From: an uncultured Verrucomicrobiales bacterium
Lineage (GTDB): Bacteria; Verrucomicrobiota; Verrucomicrobiia; Limisphaerales; UBA1100
Direction: 5' to 3'
DNA length: 41,067 nt
NCBI GenBank assembly: GCA_913048135.1
Contig: CAJWVY010000009.1
Coordinates: 1-41,067, forward strand
The position numbers and the translations under genes are program-made. Below, in pieces: positions 19,585 to 27,832 of this stretch (positions are counted from its first letter, which is position 1; each line of letters starts with the position of its first letter). Below the pieces are notes generated by a model. The model did no database searches, was not told where the DNA came from, and saw nothing but the letters and a program-made list of their open reading frames with translations.

Positions 19585-21027
19585 TTAGTAGCGATAATGC
19601 TCAGGCTTATACGGCCCCTCAACCGGGACGCTAATATAATCCGCCTGTTCAGGCGTAAGCTCGGTTAACTTCGCACCCAACTTACCCAAGTGCAGTCGTG
19701 CCACCTCTTCATCGAGTTGTTTATCAAGGCGGTACACACCAACTTTACGATCAGGATTCTTACGAATATCGATCTGCGCGATCGTTTGGTTCGTAAAACT
19801 ATTGGACATAACAAAACTCGGGTGCCCAGTCGCGCAGGCTAGATTAATGAGACGCCCTTCAGCCAATAAATAAATTGAATGACCATCCGAGAATGTATAC
19901 CGATCCACAGGACCGCCAGGAATGGAATCGTCTTTGATGACTTCCCGCGTGACCCCTTCCATTGCCTCCAAACCAGCCACCTGAATTTCATTATCAAAAT
20001 GGCCAATGTTGCAGACGATCGCCTGATCCTTCATGCGAGCCATATGGTCCGCAGTGATAATGTCCTTGTTTCCCGTGGTGGTAACGAAAATGTCAGCCTC
20101 AGTAAGCGCATCCTCAACTGTCGTGACTTGATAACCTGCCATGCAAGCCTGCAGTGCACAGATGGGATCCACCTCAGACACCATCACCCGAGCGCGCTCA
20201 TTAGCAAGCGATTCGGCCGAGCCCTTGCCTACATCGCCGTAGCCACACACCATCGCTACTTTGCCGGAGACCAACACATCCAACGCCCGTTTGATGCCGT
20301 CCACTAATGAGTGGCGGCAACCAAAGACATTGTCGAATTTAGACTTAGTTACCGAATCGTTGACATTAACGGCTTGAAACAACAACTCATCTCGTTCCTC
20401 CATTTGTATCAGACGTTGAACACCCGTGGTAGTCTCTTCGGACACGCCCACAACCGCCTCCGCCACCGGCCTCCAGTGACCAGGCTTGTCAGCATTCACC
20501 TTTTTAAGCAGGTTTTTGATAACCTGTTCTTCCTCACTGTCAGATTTAGAATCAACCCAATCACTACCGTTTTCCAACTCCAGCCCCTTGTGGATCAGCA
20601 GCGTTGCATCCCCGCCATCGTCAACGATTTGATCCGGCCCGGAACCATCCGGCCAAGTGAGAGCTTTAAAAGTGCAATCCCAGTATTCTTCCAGAGTCTC
20701 CCCCTTCCAGGCAAACACTGGAACGCCCGCGGCCGCAATGGCCGCAGCCGCATGATCCTGCGTGGAGAATATGTTGCAGGAACACCAACGCACATCAGCA
20801 CCTAACTCCACGAGGGTCTCGATCAGCACAGCGGTCTGGATAGTCATGTGCAGTGAGCCCATGATCTTTACACCGGCTAAGGGCTTTTCCGGCCCGTACT
20901 TTTCTCGAGTGGCCATCAGGCCCGGCATTTCCATTTCGGCAATATCGATTTCTTTCCGGCCAAAATCAGCCAGTGACATATCACGAACGTGATAATCCAT
21001 TTTTTGTTTTTCAAGCGTCATCGTCAT
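19585..21027 (-). CDS. ahcY: Adenosylhomocysteinase (SAH hydrolase)
   Basis: Splits S-adenosylhomocysteine reversibly into homocysteine and adenosine, clearing the product that inhibits methyltransferases. The 480-residue product matches bacterial family length. It shows the substrate-domain motif [15 protein letters not shown] (about 84-98), the NAD-binding [10 protein letters not shown] and the family C-terminus KPEHYRY. The ATG at 21027 has an AGGAGG (21040-21035 on the minus strand) 7 bases upstream, and that site overlaps the metK stop codon. With only 11 bases between the genes, metK and ahcY form an operon, ended by the hairpin at 19544-19567. Regulation by the neighbouring ArsR-methyltransferase protein is proposed. 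Confidence 0.97.
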
Positions 21028-21038
21028 TTGTATTCCTC

Positions 21039-22211
21039 CTATTTTATCACACGCTGCAAGGCAGCTATTTTGTCGGTTTTCTCCCAGGTAATATCTTTTT
21101 GGTTTTTACCAAAGTGACCATAATTCGTGGTCAACGAATAAATAGGTCGAAGCAGCTTCAAGTGCTTCACAATATCAGCCGGTTTGAGCTGAAAAACCTT
21201 GTTAACCGCACGAACAATTTTCCCTTCAGCCACGGTGTTGGTTCCAAATGTATCTACGTGCACCGAAACCGGTTTGGGATAGCCAATCGCATAAGCAAAT
21301 TGAATTTCACACCGGGTAGCCAGTCCCGCAGCAACAATATTCTTAGCCACATAACGCCCCATGTATGCCGCACTACGATCAACCTTGCTGGGGTCCTTAC
21401 CACTGAAAGCGCCGCCCCCATGGCGTCCCATACCGCCGTAGGTATCGACGATAATCTTACGGCCCGTCAAACCGCTATCGCCTTCTGGACCACCGACAAC
21501 AAACCGTCCAGTGGGATTGATTAAAATCTGCGTGTCCCTAGCCAGCATCTTTTTGGGAATTGATTTCTCGATGACCTCCCGTGTAATGAAGTCACGAATG
21601 ACCTTGTTGCTGGCATCGGCAGCATGCTGTGTGGAAACCACCACACTGGTAACCTTCACTGGTCTGTTGTCTACATATTGAACAGAAACTTGCGTCTTAG
21701 CATCCGGCCGCAGCCATTTAGCCTTTCCGGCTTTGCGAAGCTTGGTGAGCTGACGCCCCAATCGGTGGGAATACATAATCGGCGCCGGCATCAGCTCCGA
21801 AGTTTCGTCACAGGCATATCCAAACATGAGGCCTTGATCGCCCGCGCCCTGCTCAGCCGTCGCCTTGCCCGTTGCTTTACGAGCATCCACGCCCTGCGCA
21901 ATATCCGGGCTTTGCGCTGTGAGGTAATTATTGATGAACACCTTGTCCGCATGAAACACATCATCGTCATTCACGTAACCAATGTCGCGGATGGCCTTTC
22001 GGATCACCTGCTCATAATCAAACTTTGCCTTGGTAGTGATCTCGCCCCCTACGCAGACGACATTGCTTTTCACAAAGGTCTCGCAAGCCACGCGGCTGTT
22101 CTTGTCCTGCGCCATACACGCATCTAGGATTGCATCGCTGATGGTGTCCGACACCTTGTCCGGATGACCTTCACCAACGGATTCAGAGGAAAATATGTAA
22201 CTTTTAGCCAT
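21039..22211 (-). CDS. metK: S-adenosylmethionine synthetase
   Basis: Makes SAM from methionine and ATP in the cytoplasm. The 390-residue product has the opening [13 protein letters not shown] (ATP and metal site), the signature [12 protein letters not shown] and the P-loop-like [14 protein letters not shown]. Length is normal for bacteria. The ATG at 22211 lies 15 bases from the inverted repeat at 22227-22244; the leader has no strong Shine-Dalgarno match. It is the first gene of metK-ahcY and divergent from the ArsR-methyltransferase gene across 90 bases. Confidence 0.97.
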
Positions 22212-22226
22212 GAGATTTCAAGGGAT

Positions 22227-22244
22227 GTCAATTTACATATTGAC
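22227..22244. promoter_or_regulatory. Inverted repeat, candidate operator of the ArsR-methyltransferase regulator
   Basis: GTCAAT (22227-22232) and ATTGAC (22239-22244) form a perfect 6-base inverted repeat around a 6-base A/T-rich spacer, the size expected for a winged-helix dimer of the ArsR family. The right half overlaps the -35 candidate TTGACG (22240-22245) of the rightward promoter. The whole repeat lies just past the predicted start of the leftward metK transcript. Binding here could therefore repress both directions. That it is the regulator's site is inference from position and symmetry. Confidence 0.55.
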
Positions 22245-22267
22245 GTATCCGGATTAAAAGATATTAA
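22240..22267 (+). promoter_or_regulatory. Candidate promoter of the ArsR-methyltransferase gene
   Basis: TTGACG (22240-22245) and TATTAA (22262-22267) are spaced by 16 bases. The predicted start near 22274 would leave a leader of about 28 bases containing GGAG at 22276-22279. The -35 box lies in the inverted repeat and the -10 box overlaps that of the opposing metK promoter. Confidence 0.4.
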
Positions 22268-22285
22268 ATTTTGAAGGAGCGTCAA
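22258..22285 (-). promoter_or_regulatory. Candidate promoter of metK-ahcY
   Basis: Read on the minus strand, TTGACG (22285-22280) and TATCTT (22263-22258) are spaced by 16 bases. The predicted start is near 22251, giving a leader of about 40 bases that contains the inverted repeat at about +7 to +24. A repressor bound there would block initiation or escape. Confidence 0.4.
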
Positions 22286-22301
22286 ACCAATTTTCTCCAC
22301 C

Positions 22302-23231
22302 ATGAGCCAATCCCTGAAAATTCTGAAAGCGCTTACCGACGCCACCCGACTTAGACTGGTCGCTTTACTGAGCCGCGAGGAGCTCTCAGTCAATGAACTT
22401 CAGGAAATCACCGAATTGGGCCAATCTCGTATCTCAACCCATCTTGGTGTGCTTCAGGAAAACGGCCTGCTCACGTTTCGAAAAGACGGCAAGCGCTCGC
22501 TGTACCGCATTAATCCAAAGACCACCCGTCAAGCCCACGAATGCCTTGAATTGGCCCGGCAAATAGCCAGCGAAGGAGGGGAACACGAACAGGACGGCCG
22601 CAATCTCAAGCGCGTGCTCGAGCAACGCAGTGAGCAGGCCCAAGTGTATTTCAATCAAGTCGCCGGCCGGTTTGATCAAAAATATGGTCCCGGCCGTTCC
22701 TGGCAGGCCTTCGGCCAACTACTCCTGCAGCTTGTGCCTCCGCTTGATATCGCGGATCTTGGTTCCGGTGAGGGTTTGGTCGGGGAACTCCTCGCCCGTA
22801 ATGCCCGCAAGGTCATTTGCGTGGATAACTCCAAACACATCGTGGATTTCGGCCAGCGCAAAGCAGAAAAAAACGGCCTCAAGAACCTCGAGTTTCGCCA
22901 TGGCGACATCGAAAACCCTCCCCTCCGAGCCAAGACAGTGGATGTGGCTCTGTTCAGCCAAGCCTTACATCACGCCGAGAACCCCGAAGCGGCACTGGCC
23001 TCAGCCTACCGAATCCTGCGTCCGGGCGGACGCTTGATCATTCTGGATTTGCTCGAACACCAATTCGAACAGGCTCGGGATTTATACGGAGATCGTTGGC
23101 TCGGCTTCCCGAAAAATACGCTGCACCAATGGATCACTGAAGCTGGCTTTAAGCAGGCGGAAATCACCGAAGCCGCCCGAGAAGAAGAACCACCGCATTT
23201 CACCACACTGCTCGCAATAGCCGAGAAGTGA
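22302..23231 (+). CDS. ArsR-family regulator fused to a SAM-dependent methyltransferase-like domain (SahR-like)
   Basis: The 309-residue product joins two domains. Residues 1-75 form an ArsR winged helix (recognition region about 40-56, LGQSRISTHLGVLQENG, with the wing at KDGKRSLYRI). Residues about 115-305 form a class I methyltransferase-like domain with motif I DLGSGEGLVG (152-161), the acidic VICVDNS (171-177) and SQALHHAENP near motif IV. None of the metal-binding cysteines of arsenic-sensing ArsR is visible. This plan matches the SAH-responsive regulator SahR described in Proteobacteria, where the methyltransferase fold serves as ligand sensor. Facing metK-ahcY supports that role here; enzymatic methylation is not excluded. 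Its TGA touches the stop codon of the DUF1552 gene with no base between. Confidence 0.82.
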   Translation: MSQSLKILKALTDATRLRLVALLSREELSVNELQEITELGQSRISTHLGVLQENGLLTFRKDGKRSLYRINPKTTRQAHECLELARQIASEGGEHEQDGRNLKRVLEQRSEQAQVYFNQVAGRFDQKYGPGRSWQAFGQLLLQLVPPLDIADLGSGEGLVGELLARNARKVICVDNSKHIVDFGQRKAEKNGLKNLEFRHGDIENPPLRAKTVDVALFSQALHHAENPEAALASAYRILRPGGRLIILDLLEHQFEQARDLYGDRWLGFPKNTLHQWITEAGFKQAEITEAAREEEPPHFTTLLAIAEK

Positions 23232-24566
23232 CTAAGCCAAGTCCTTCAAGCGGCCCGTGCTGTCACCCAATTGATCGGTTGACGTACCCATTATATCGAG
23301 CATGTTGAGGAACAGGTTAGCCATCGGTGTCATCTTGGGATAGACCACATGCCGCCCCGGCTTAATCGCGCCATTGCCCTTACCGGCCATCAGAACGGGT
23401 AAATCATAATGAGTGTGACGATTCCCATCCCCAATTGCACCGCCATATACGACCATGGAATGATCCAGCAAAGTGCCTTCCCCTTCAGGAATGGTTTTCA
23501 AACGTTCCACGAGATGAGCAAACAGCGTCACATGATAACGATCGATCTTAGCCAACGACTTCACCTTCTCGGCATTGTCGCGGTGATGGGACAGACTGTG
23601 GTGTCCGCTTTTCACGCCAACCACCGGATAGCTCCGGTTCGATCCATCGTGCGCCATGAGATAGGAAATTACACGCGTTGAATCTGTTTGAAACGCCAAG
23701 GCCATCATGTCCGCCATAAGCCGAACATGCTCCCCGTAATCGTTGGGCTTGCCAGCAGGGACAGAAAAACCCTTCGGCAAATCCACCGGGGACTCCGCCA
23801 TAGCCTCCACGCGGCGCTCCATTTCCCGCACAGATTCCAGATACTCATCGAGCTTTCGCTTGTCCGTATAACCAAGGCGCTTCTCCAATTGCTTCGCATC
23901 GTCCATCGCGAAATCGAGAATGCTTTTCCGCAACGCCATGCGTCGCTTGCGCTCCTGCGAAGCCTCTTTAGCTGAACCGCCCGCAAACAGGCGGTCGAAC
24001 ACCTTCTTGGGATTGGATTCCGGCGGCACAGGCGTGGTTTCATTTTTCCACGCCAAATTAAACTGGTACGCACAACTGTAACCGGAATCACATCGCCCAC
24101 TCAATCGCACGCCTTCACTGCTCAACTCCAGTGAAGGCAGCCGGGTTTTGCCCGCCAATCGCTGTGCCGCCACTTGATCGACTGAGACACCCAGCCGAAT
24201 ATCAGCCCCGCTGGTTTTGCGCGCCTGACAGCCCGTCAGAAAAGTAGCATTGGCCCGTGCATGATCCCCGGCACCATCACCGTTGGCTTCCGCCTTTTCA
24301 TGCGCCAAGCCGCTAAAGACCAGCAAATCTTCCCGATGTTTTTCCAAGGGCTGCAACGTGCGGGACATCCGGTATCCGGTGCCTTCGCCTTTGACGTTCC
24401 AGTCCTTTTGAATGACGCCATTGGGAATGTACACGAACGCCATGCGCGTTGGAAATTTCACATTCCCCGCAGCCAACGCCTTGCCCGGGATCATGGCCTC
24501 CAGTGCCGGCAAAGCAATAGCCGTTCCAGCACCCCGCAAAAATGTTCTCCGTGAAAGTTGCTTCAT
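23232..24566 (-). CDS. DUF1552 family protein with Tat signal
   Basis: A 444-residue exported protein of unknown function. The N-terminus MKQLSRRTFLRGAGTAIALP is a twin-arginine signal followed by a hydrophobic core and an AxA-like cleavage region near KALAAG, so it is exported folded, probably with a metal cofactor. DUF1552 landmarks include RMAFVYIPNGV (about 41-51), the HARANATFLTG stretch and SGHHSLSHH near residue 327. The family resembles DUF1501 and may share the alkaline-phosphatase-like fold; that is inference. It is the last gene of the exported-protein block, 60 bases behind the DUF1592-type cytochrome gene, its usual partner in this group. The gene carries no sign of transfer. Confidence 0.9.
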   Translation of the reverse strand: MKQLSRRTFLRGAGTAIALPALEAMIPGKALAAGNVKFPTRMAFVYIPNGVIQKDWNVKGEGTGYRMSRTLQPLEKHREDLLVFSGLAHEKAEANGDGAGDHARANATFLTGCQARKTSGADIRLGVSVDQVAAQRLAGKTRLPSLELSSEGVRLSGRCDSGYSCAYQFNLAWKNETTPVPPESNPKKVFDRLFAGGSAKEASQERKRRMALRKSILDFAMDDAKQLEKRLGYTDKRKLDEYLESVREMERRVEAMAESPVDLPKGFSVPAGKPNDYGEHVRLMADMMALAFQTDSTRVISYLMAHDGSNRSYPVVGVKSGHHSLSHHRDNAEKVKSLAKIDRYHVTLFAHLVERLKTIPEGEGTLLDHSMVVYGGAIGDGNRHTHYDLPVLMAGKGNGAIKPGRHVVYPKMTPMANLFLNMLDIMGTSTDQLGDSTGRLKDLA

Positions 24567-24626
24567 TGTTCCTACGCGTTACTTAGAGGTAATCTAGCCT
24601 GAATTCGCTCAATAAACAAGCCGACA

Positions 24627-26513
24627 TTATGGGGCTGCTTCGCCACGTTTCATATCAAATGGCAGGCTTCCCACGATACCCATCACCAAGTGAAACGATC
24701 GATCCTCATTGCCCTTCAGCCGCTCAACAATTTTATCAACCGGCCTTTTATCGTAATATTCAAGCCCGCGCCCCAGAGCATAAGTCAGCATCTTCTCCGT
24801 GACGCAGCGGATGAACAAATCCGATTTCTTAGTCGCAAAAATCGCCCGCAGCTCCGCTGCATTTCTGAAAGGCTCGCCACTATCAAGTTGCCCGCCCGCA
24901 TCCACAGGCGCGCCATTGTCCTCCGTTCGGTAACGCCCGATGGCGTCAAAGTTTTCAAACGCAAACCCAATCGGATCCATTTTCTTATGGCAAGAGGCGC
25001 ATACGGCGTTGGTGCTGTGCTTGGCCATTTGTTCGCGCATGGTGCCCTTAATCTCACCGGCCTCTTCCAATTCCGGAACATTTGGCGGCGGTGGCGGTGG
25101 TGGTGTGCCCAAGATATTATCGAGCACGTATTTACCCCGCTTTACCGGCGATGTGCGGTCCGGGTCACTGGTTAGAGTCAGCACACTGGCATGCCCCAAG
25201 ACTCCGGCTCGTGTGTTTCCGCGTAACGCCACTTTACGAAACGCCTCTCCCTGAATATTTGGCAAGCCATACAAGGCAGCCAAACGTTCGTTCACAAACG
25301 AATAACGCGCAGTCAATAATTCGGTGAGCGGCCGGTTCCCTCGCAAAACATCAACGAAGAGCAACTCGGTTTCCCGACGCATATCCTCACGTAATTCCGG
25401 GGTGTAAACCGGGAACAGATTTTTATCAGGTCGCACGATATCCAAATTGCGCAACTGCAGCCATTGACCGGCAAAATTCTCCACCAACGCTTCCGCCCTG
25501 GAATCAGCCAACATTCGCTGCACTTCAGATTCGAGCTGCTTACGCAGCGCCCCTTTGGCCGCCAAATCCAACAAGCGATCATCCGGCACACTGCTCCAAA
25601 TGAAAAATGCCAGTCGAGAAGCTAGTTCGTATTCATTCAGACGCCGGATTGCCTTGGGATTTGATGGCGCCCCATCCAGTTCCCAGCGAAAAAGAAAATG
25701 CGGGGAAACCATGACCGCCTGAATCACCACTTGAACACGCATCTCAAGTGGCACCCCTTCGCCGGCCGCCGCCTTGCTCACCGCAAGCATGCGAGTTATC
25801 TCAGCATCCCGAATCTCACGCCGATAAGCGCGCCTCATAAATTTTGCCACAAACTCACCGAAGGCAACCGCTTCGGCATCCTTTGCGACCGGTAATTTGA
25901 AGTACTCTTTTTGAAATTCAGTGGGCTCCTTTTCCTTCGGCCGAATCACGACAGCCGCCGCGGCAATGGTTTCCGCGGCATCCAGATATTTCTCCATCAG
26001 TAACGGCGACATCGAAAGCACATCACCAATATTATCAAATCCATATCCCGTATCGTCCGCTGGAAAATCTTTGGCCGGCTTGAAATCCACAAATAACAAA
26101 TCGCGTACAACATTATTGTATTCACTCCGGTTCAGCCGCCGAACCGTCACCCGACCAGGATCCGGCGGAGCTGTTCGGTAAAAGGTATCCAGCGAATGGC
26201 GCGACCAATCTGCCAGCAAGTCCCGCTCTTCACCATTGGGACGTTTCTTCCGGCCTTCCGGCGGCATTTCCCCGGCGGCCACCAACTTACGAATTTGCTC
26301 CCAAATCTTGTAGCCGTGGTGGACGTCTTTTTCCGTTTGGAATACGTCCAGCGCCAACCCTCCCTTTGTCTCGCCGTCGCCGTGGCAGGCATAACAATGA
26401 TCTTCCAGCAACGGGAGAATATCCTTGGCAAACGAAACTTTGGCCGGATCCACCGCCGCAGTCACAGTTATGCTACCGGCCACTAAACACAAAATTACCC
26501 GAAACCAACCCAT
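24627..26513 (-). CDS. Exported c-type-cytochrome-like protein of the DUF1587/1595/1592/1588/1585 type
   Basis: A 628-residue protein with a Sec signal peptide (MGWFRVILCLVAGS) and two CxxCH haem motifs. The first is in a PSCyt1-like domain (CYACHG, Cys40, Cys43, His44) and the second in the C-terminal part (CASCHKK, Cys505, Cys508, His509). Between them the order fits DUF1587 (RRLNRSEYNNVVRDLL), DUF1595 (FMRRAYRREI), DUF1592 (YELASRLAFFIWSSVPDD) and DUF1588, with a run of seven prolines after NILGT; DUF1585 ends it. The frame is open to a GTG at 26555 overlapping the upstream stop, and another GTG at 26522 lies 4 bases from AGGAGG. I kept the ATG at 26513 because it starts the signal peptide. 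Function is unknown; redox activity is inferred from the haem motifs. Confidence 0.88.
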   Translation of the reverse strand: MGWFRVILCLVAGSITVTAAVDPAKVSFAKDILPLLEDHCYACHGDGETKGGLALDVFQTEKDVHHGYKIWEQIRKLVAAGEMPPEGRKKRPNGEERDLLADWSRHSLDTFYRTAPPDPGRVTVRRLNRSEYNNVVRDLLFVDFKPAKDFPADDTGYGFDNIGDVLSMSPLLMEKYLDAAETIAAAAVVIRPKEKEPTEFQKEYFKLPVAKDAEAVAFGEFVAKFMRRAYRREIRDAEITRMLAVSKAAAGEGVPLEMRVQVVIQAVMVSPHFLFRWELDGAPSNPKAIRRLNEYELASRLAFFIWSSVPDDRLLDLAAKGALRKQLESEVQRMLADSRAEALVENFAGQWLQLRNLDIVRPDKNLFPVYTPELREDMRRETELLFVDVLRGNRPLTELLTARYSFVNERLAALYGLPNIQGEAFRKVALRGNTRAGVLGHASVLTLTSDPDRTSPVKRGKYVLDNILGTPPPPPPPNVPELEEAGEIKGTMREQMAKHSTNAVCASCHKKMDPIGFAFENFDAIGRYRTEDNGAPVDAGGQLDSGEPFRNAAELRAIFATKKSDLFIRCVTEKMLTYALGRGLEYYDKRPVDKIVERLKGNEDRSFHLVMGIVGSLPFDMKRGEAAP

Positions 26514-26554
26514 GCGCTGCACTAGACCTCCTTTTGCCGCACCATATTCAAACA

Positions 26555-27832
26555 CTAAACAAACAACTCCTTCACGGGCTTGCCGTGATCGGTAATCGGG
26601 ACAGGGCGATCGCCGTCATACAGGTTTTTACTAGGGTTCACGCCCATGGCCCAGTGGATGGTGGCAAACAGGTCCGGCACAGATATCGGACGCTCGACCA
26701 CTTTCTTGCCAATCTCATCAGTCACGCCAATCGCCTGGCCGTTCTTCAATCCGCCACCGGCCAGAGCAACGGTAAACGCTCGCGATTGGTGTCCGCGCCC
26801 GCCACCGCCATCGAATTCCGGCGGACGCCCAAATTCTGTGGACACCACGATCAATGTCTTATCGAGCAGCTTATGGGTCTTCAGATCCGTCACCAACGTC
26901 GCCAACGCCTGATCCAGTTGCTGGATAATTAAGTGCTGTTTTAATTGGCCAGCATTATGCGTATCCCAGCCCGTGCCATTGACGAAATTCAAATTGAAGG
27001 ACACTTCCTGAAAGCGAACACCCCGCTGAATCAATCGACGCGCCAATAGGCAACGCTGGCCGAATTCGCCACCGTACGCGTTACGCAATGAGCCCGGCTC
27101 AGATTTCAGGTTAAAGGCTCCCATGAACTCGCCGCTCATCAACTCCTGCGATTCCCCGATCGCGTCATTGTATTGGCGAATCACCGTGTCTTTCGGATTG
27201 CGTTCCACAAACGATTCCCGCGCCACACCCAACAGGCGATCCCGCGCATCCTGTCGCGAGGTGGAGATATTCGCCGGACGCGTCAAACCTGCCGGTCCAT
27301 TTTCCGTATTCGTGAGGTAGACAAACCCATGCTTGGCCCCCAGAAAGCCCGGACCGCGAGTAAGATTCGGATACCCCATTACCACATAAGCCGGTGCGCC
27401 GTCGGTGGCTTTGCCCCGTTCATGCGCTACCGCCGAGCCGATGGAGGGGTACACGATGGTCCCACTAACCGGTCGGCCGGTGTGCATCTCATTGGTGGCA
27501 GCCGCATGTTCATCCACGGCCTCATGATGCACCGATCGCAACAACGAGAAATGCTCCATCACCTTCGCGCAATTACTGAGATGCTCGCAGACCTGCAAGC
27601 CGGGCACCGAGGTATTGATGGCATCATAATAGGAGCCCGGCTTTTTAAGCTTGGGATCGCCTTTAATTTTCGGATCCCAAGTGTCCACATGGCACGCACC
27701 GCCACCGAGCCAGATATGGATGCAGTGCTCCACGTTGCCCGGCGCAAAATCCGGCCGCGGCGCAGAATGCAACACTGAGGGCATTGCGGCCGCGGCGGCT
27801 GTTCCGGCGAGAAATTGTCGACGATCGATCAT
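26555..27832 (-). CDS. DUF1501 family protein with Tat signal (first copy)
   Basis: A 425-residue exported protein related to the alkaline phosphatase/sulfatase fold. The N-terminus MIDRRQFLAGTAAAAAMPS is a twin-arginine signal. Family landmarks are the early IHIWLGGGACHVDTWDPK (metal-site region), LRSVHHE, GWDTHNAG in the middle and STEFGRPPEF near the end. The ATG at 27832 overlaps the preceding TGA in the arrangement ATGA, so translation is coupled to the LamG-DUF1549-DUF1553 gene. The longer frame to 27898 has no signal peptide at its start and was rejected. Substrate unknown. Confidence 0.92.
   Translation of the reverse strand: MIDRRQFLAGTAAAAAMPSVLHSAPRPDFAPGNVEHCIHIWLGGGACHVDTWDPKIKGDPKLKKPGSYYDAINTSVPGLQVCEHLSNCAKVMEHFSLLRSVHHEAVDEHAAATNEMHTGRPVSGTIVYPSIGSAVAHERGKATDGAPAYVVMGYPNLTRGPGFLGAKHGFVYLTNTENGPAGLTRPANISTSRQDARDRLLGVARESFVERNPKDTVIRQYNDAIGESQELMSGEFMGAFNLKSEPGSLRNAYGGEFGQRCLLARRLIQRGVRFQEVSFNLNFVNGTGWDTHNAGQLKQHLIIQQLDQALATLVTDLKTHKLLDKTLIVVSTEFGRPPEFDGGGGRGHQSRAFTVALAGGGLKNGQAIGVTDEIGKKVVERPISVPDLFATIHWAMGVNPSKNLYDGDRPVPITDHGKPVKELFV

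Follow-up and report, generated by a model that had tools for sequence, protein, structure and literature searches.

Organization of the metK-sahR locus

The window, that is, the whole 41,067-nucleotide stretch of DNA analysed here (contig CAJWVY010000009.1 of an uncultured Verrucomicrobiales bacterium), contains a 90-base gap (22212-22301) that separates two divergent transcription units. On the plus strand lies sahR (22302..23228), assigned from Pfam and NCBIfam profile matches, an AlphaFold model and homology, which encodes a 309-residue protein with an ArsR-type domain and a methyltransferase-like domain. Facing it on the minus strand is an operon whose first gene is metK, for S-adenosylmethionine (SAM) synthetase (21039..22211; TIGR01034, 554 bits), and whose second is ahcY, for S-adenosylhomocysteine (SAH) hydrolase (19585..21027; TIGR00936, 578 bits). 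The gap also holds an exact and perfect inverted repeat, GTCAAT-N6-ATTGAC (GTCAATTTACATATTGAC, 22227-22244). A first-pass annotation had described the ArsR-methyltransferase gene, the repeat and the metK-ahcY pair facing it across the 90 bases, and all of these were present as described.

Among 98 genomes from the order to which this bacterium belongs (in the little-studied phylum Verrucomicrobiota), 83 carry a sahR ortholog, each in single copy. The divergent neighbour of sahR is metK in these relatives too: in most of the 79 loci examined among them, sahR faces metK and ahcY comes after metK. Downstream of sahR, the minus strand of the window (23232-26555) carries a DUF1552 (HXXSHH) protein and another large open reading frame, which have no relation to the switch.

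A SahR-type regulator

The sahR product is laid out as a winged-helix domain (residues ~1-75), a set of linker helices (~76-145) and a class I methyltransferase-fold sensor domain (~146-309). Profile matches placed an ArsR helix-turn-helix (HTH_5) at residues 13-57 and a class I methyltransferase domain (Methyltransf_11) at residues 152-247, and in the AlphaFold model (mean pLDDT 90) a helical linker joins the winged helix to a Rossmann methyltransferase fold. When residues 131-309 of this model were compared with known structures, SAH-bound methyltransferases were among the best fold matches, with Z of ~18-22 in structural alignment. Profiles, model and fold search thus all give the fusion of an ArsR-type helix-turn-helix to a SAM-methyltransferase-like effector domain that is a feature of SahR. 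The residues at the usual cofactor-motif positions (Gly154, Gly156, Gly158 and Asp175) were invariant across 51 sequences. A sequence search of the PDB matched the domains separately and found no ArsR-methyltransferase fusion of the SahR family among solved structures.

SahR was reportedly first described by Novichkov et al. in 2014, and Desulfovibrio SahR is reportedly a repressor released by SAH. The window protein is homologous over its full length to SAM-cycle-linked SahR proteins, in a comparison that did not include the D. alaskensis protein itself, and is 30-37% identical to SahR of the proteobacterial and desulfo types. A Halodesulfovibrio homologue encoded beside ahcY, used as the query, picked out the window protein as by far its best hit in this genome (E 3e-46, with the next at 1e-7). 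Orthology, gene context, operator spacing and regulon bear out the first-pass proposal of a SahR-type SAM-cycle regulator, and on sequence grounds the window gene is a regulator of this known type, in phyla for which no earlier report was found. By analogy with Desulfovibrio SahR, and from the presence of ahcY in the target operon, its ligand would be SAH; the same analogy points to repression as the sign of regulation and to release of the repressor from DNA by SAH. In a tree, the proteins of Verrucomicrobiota, Acidobacteriota and Planctomycetota fall on one side and the proteobacterial, desulfo-, spirochaete and other proteins opposite. With a separate clade and 30-37% identity, ligand preference could have shifted from that of the proteobacterial and desulfo-type proteins.

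An alternative that we consider unlikely is that the regulator senses SAM, as proposed for SamR of the Xanthomonadales, a SahR-like regulator with a partly similar palindrome (PMC4239095), which would give end-product feedback on the cycle. In its favour, this fold accommodates SAM as well as SAH, metK is among the targets, and the ~33% identity to SahR resembles the distance between SamR and SahR (PMC4239095). However, Leyn et al. found metK to be the only SAM-cycle gene of SamR, with no ahcY in its regulon (PMC4239095), whereas here ahcY lies behind metK in an operator-preceded operon and is predicted to be co-regulated with it. Moreover, the genome already has a means of sensing SAM, a single SAM-I riboswitch (RF00162, 80 bits; L248:3561-3676, minus strand of contig 174) upstream of a threonine-synthase-like (thrC-like) gene, which is followed by a gene with a NIL domain. 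RF00162 is present in 65 of the 98 relatives, and the one other gene read downstream of it, in the sahR-less genome G044, is also thrC-like. No SAM or SAH riboswitch was matched by Rfam at gathering scores within the window, where metK-ahcY lies. Given this position of SAM-I, the sensing of SAM and that of SAH appear to be split between two systems, which suggests that SAM controls the homocysteine/threonine branch while SahR controls the cycle.

A predicted operator within overlapping divergent promoters

Adjoining the perfect repeat is the predicted SahR operator, TATCCGGATTAAAAGATA (22246..22263), of the form TATC-N10-GATA, which was identified by its conservation, spacing and rarity. Its half-sites TATC and GATA were invariant in 62 aligned intergenic sites; these sites were chosen by the left half-site, and it is the right half, GATA, that forms the independent part of this conservation. 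The conserved block in the alignment reads [AG]TATTGACGTATCnnGATnnGAnGATATA, followed ~13 bases further on by CGTCAA. The half-sites match ATC-10nt-GAT, the consensus common to gammaproteobacterial SahR and SamR sites (Leyn et al., PMC4239095); the SahR operator of this type is a 20-bp palindrome.

A spacing of 10 is favoured over every other: 59 of 79 regions upstream of sahR contain an exact TATC-N10-GATA, and each other spacing from 4 to 16 gives 0-1. About a quarter of the upstream regions near sahR lack exact half-sites; several of them belong to loci at which sahR and metK are no longer neighbours. The pattern GTATCnnGATnnnAnGATA was found in 70 of the 98 genomes, against 1 of 98 for a reversed control, and it tracks the regulator gene, being present in 69 of 83 genomes with sahR and in 1 of 15 genomes without it (Fisher p 1.6e-8). 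Some other matches to the operator pattern in relatives (e.g. L116, L126, L129 and L133) fall within coding sequence and look like chance.

The operator lies among the elements of two face-to-face promoters. For sahR, the -35 box is TTGACG (22240..22245, plus strand), which hardly varies at sites with sahR alongside (G in 59 of 62), and the probable -10 box, after a 16-base spacer, is TATTAA (22262..22267, plus strand), inferred from a conserved TATATN at this position. For metK, the -35 box is TTGACG (22280..22285, minus strand; CGTCAA on the plus strand), with 1.4-1.65 bits at five of its six positions, and the probable -10 box is TATCTT (22258..22263, minus strand), in which the last T corresponds to an invariant A. 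An independent promoter scan returned the same metK promoter, TTGACG-16-TATCTT at 22285-22258 on the minus strand. The metK -10 box overlaps both the right half-site of the operator and the sahR -10 box, and the two bases that the -10 boxes share are within that half-site. Since the operator coincides in part with both of these opposed promoters, whose -10 boxes overlap, binding of a single repressor should silence transcription in either direction.

If each transcript starts 7 bases past its -10 box, the predicted start sites are near 22274 for sahR and 22251 for metK, ~23 bp apart, an arithmetical estimate for unmapped starts, and 23 bp is one of the common start-site distances at bidirectional promoters of Escherichia coli (PMC12825309). 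The bidirectional promoters with a shared -10 described by Warman et al. (PMC12825309) likewise have overlapping -10 boxes on opposite strands; here, in contrast, the start sites are predicted, and a repressor site is part of the unit as a whole. In four genomes of relatives (loci L122, L127, L130 and L131), the operator precedes metK, and the retrieved stretch showed no sahR next to it. The left -35 box at these loci has become TTAACG or TCGACG and the metK -35 box retains its GTCAA, as would be expected if TTGACG serves sahR.

The predicted regulon

There are exactly two occurrences of TATCnnGATn5GATA in the genome of the window, one at 22246-22263 and the other ahead of metH on contig 28; metH is the only methionine synthase gene found in this genome. 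Since we estimate from base composition that ~1 match per genome would arise by chance, the weight lies on the location of the two matches. The metH operator overlaps a 24-base perfect palindrome, ATCAACATATCCGGATATGTTGAT. Among relatives, an exact TATC-N10-GATA was present in 37 of 75 metH upstream regions, and in 70 of 75 when one mismatch was allowed; other spacings gave 0-1 exact matches. Scored in bits, 70 of 75 metH loci have a site above 8 in their upstream region, as does 1 of 30 metF loci, on a background of 5 of 172 segments of other loci, the highest of which is the one metF site. Five metH regions had no site, and for three of them the genome also yielded no sahR (G044, G066 and G094). 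One genome that is 93% complete, G053 (L144), has a good operator upstream of metH and no sahR found, which may reflect a missing contig, a divergent regulator or a relic.

The first-pass annotation had proposed that the repeat be sought upstream of metE, metH and metF. With TATC-N10-GATA, this held for metH and, in three relatives, for metE, and failed for metF in all but one relative. Three genomes of the same family with no metH match (G009, G010 and G013) have the operator upstream of metE, and no operator was found upstream of metE in G043, G057 and G067, in which metE and metH are both present. As the operator appears at metE where there is no metH match, control would follow the methionine synthase reaction, and the change of target from metH to metE would be a natural demonstration that regulation tracks the reaction, not the gene. 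Two more distant genomes that have metE and no metH match (G033 and G095) have no site before metE, so the shift holds within the family of the window only.

The genome of the window itself has no operator upstream of metF. The single metF site is a strong operator in one relative (G052; L120/L179), and metF is otherwise outside the regulon in the order. The core SahR regulon is recovered as sahR, metK-ahcY and metH in the own genome and metE in relatives, with the missing metF a partial departure. Overall, the sites make a strong prediction of the SahR regulon in this lineage.

We also considered whether the conserved block is merely a strong bidirectional promoter at which no repressor acts, the methyltransferase being an enzyme. 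This seems to us most unlikely: TTGACG and CGTCAA do fit -35 boxes with 16-base spacers, but the core is also found before metH and metE, where it occurs in either orientation and lacks the two -35 boxes, it tracks the presence of sahR, and it matches sites before sahR-ahcY operons in other phyla.

The perfect inverted repeat

The first-pass annotation had taken the 18-base repeat, rather than TATC-N10-GATA, for the operator. The repeat is real and rare, with two exact matches in the 2.94-Mb genome, the second inside the nusA coding region, and the four closest genomes and three of 12 other family members keep its left arm, GTCAAT, in full. We nevertheless find it hardly tenable as an operator, ruled out by the 62-site alignment: in relatives that keep the gene pair the right arm is retained and the left arm is lost (none of 46 sites from other families has it whole), its columns are little conserved, and the metH operator in this genome lacks the repeat. 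The right arm ATTGAC is nearly invariant, being intact in 43 of the 46 other-family sites, because its TTGAC belongs to the -35 box of the sahR promoter. The operator predicted by sequence conservation is therefore TATC-N10-GATA, not GTCAAT-N6-ATTGAC; the striking perfect palindrome was a distraction, one half of which is a -35 box.

We find it barely credible that the gene codes for a conventional ArsR sensor of metals or arsenic joined to a domain like that of arsenite methyltransferase and lies beside metK by chance, since HTH_metalloreg and ArsM-type profiles do match but the metal-sensing cysteine pair (CxC) of the ELCVCDL type is absent from the helix-turn-helix, which has ELSVNEL instead, the only two cysteines (Cys81 and Cys173) are far apart, and the arrangement with metK-ahcY is kept across the order.

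Proposed mechanism

The family, operator, promoter layout and target genes of the window's SahR are supported by the comparisons above. The mechanism to which they point, and which we hold to be very probable, is a SahR-type repressor with one operator across the metK-ahcY and sahR promoters and a second at metH, whose release by SAH derepresses the SAM cycle. The winged helix of SahR would bind TATC-N10-GATA (22246-22263), lying across both promoters, and the second operator copy, upstream of metH elsewhere in the genome. Bound SahR would block RNA polymerase in both directions, so that sahR would repress itself along with the SAM cycle. Accumulating SAH, the by-product of methylation reactions, would fill the methyltransferase-like pocket, upon which SahR would leave the DNA and MetK, AhcY and MetH would be produced. 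As a result SAH would be hydrolysed, and homocysteine returned to methionine and SAM. The exact operator and the target list are now available for tests with purified protein.

SahR-type regulators in other phyla

A scan of named genomes gave homologues in Verrucomicrobiota, Acidobacteriota, Planctomycetota, Spirochaetota, Gemmatimonadota and candidate division KSB1, as well as in Desulfovibrionaceae, Desulfuromonadales and Alphaproteobacteria, and these mostly adjoin ahcY, metK, metH or metF. An exact TATC-N10-GATA precedes sahR in 10 of 19 members of the delta/Spirochaete/KSB1/Gemmatimonadota set and in three of four Acidobacteriota, with almost no other spacing in either. The N10 spacing is found before sahR-ahcY in Desulfuromonadales, Spirochaetota, Gemmatimonadota and Acidobacteriota, and Leptospira interrogans has a perfect palindrome, GGATATCAAGATATCTTGATATCC, before sahR-ahcY-metH.

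With SahR of Desulfovibrio and other Deltaproteobacteria (PMC4239095), the system of the window shares the ArsR helix-turn-helix and methyltransferase-like domain, autoregulation, the targets ahcY, metK and metH, and the ATC-10nt-GAT operator spacing; loci of the Desulfuromonadales type have sahR-ahcY with TATC-N10-GATA, as in the window. It differs from the deltaproteobacterial systems in that the proteins are ~35% identical, in that sahR faces metK-ahcY here and leads ahcY there, and in that the window operator has a less symmetric core (TATCnnGATnnGAnGATA) and sits inside overlapping divergent promoters. SahR of the Rhizobiales (Sinorhizobium meliloti and Ensifer aridi; PMC8877191) is homologous over its full length, with 33% identity, and likewise regulates the SAM cycle, but it is encoded in a sahR-metF operon and has a ACATAAAGATATCTTTATGT-type operator without exact TATC and GATA 10 bases apart. 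Sites of the ACATAAAGATATCTTTATGT type were those found for alphaproteobacterial sahR.

A literature search, with subscription papers largely outside its reach, returned no earlier report of SahR in Verrucomicrobia, and the papers naming both SahR and ArsR were, by their titles and abstracts, proteobacterial or unrelated. The present results would extend a well-defined SAH-responsive regulon described in Proteobacteria to Verrucomicrobiota and other phyla, many of whose members are uncultured. We lean, by a little more than an even chance, towards the broader reading that an SAH-sensing repressor is widespread beyond Proteobacteria (in Verrucomicrobiota, Acidobacteriota, Planctomycetota, Spirochaetota and Gemmatimonadota), and that in this order it uses a bidirectional-promoter operator, with polymerase competition between sahR and the methyl-cycle operon, and an operator at metE when the synthase is replaced.

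Three contigs labelled as Akkermansia muciniphila (L270, L274 and L291) encode sahR of other verrucomicrobial types, those of L270 and L274 being ~62-63% identical to the window's sahR; the species labels of all three are probably wrong.
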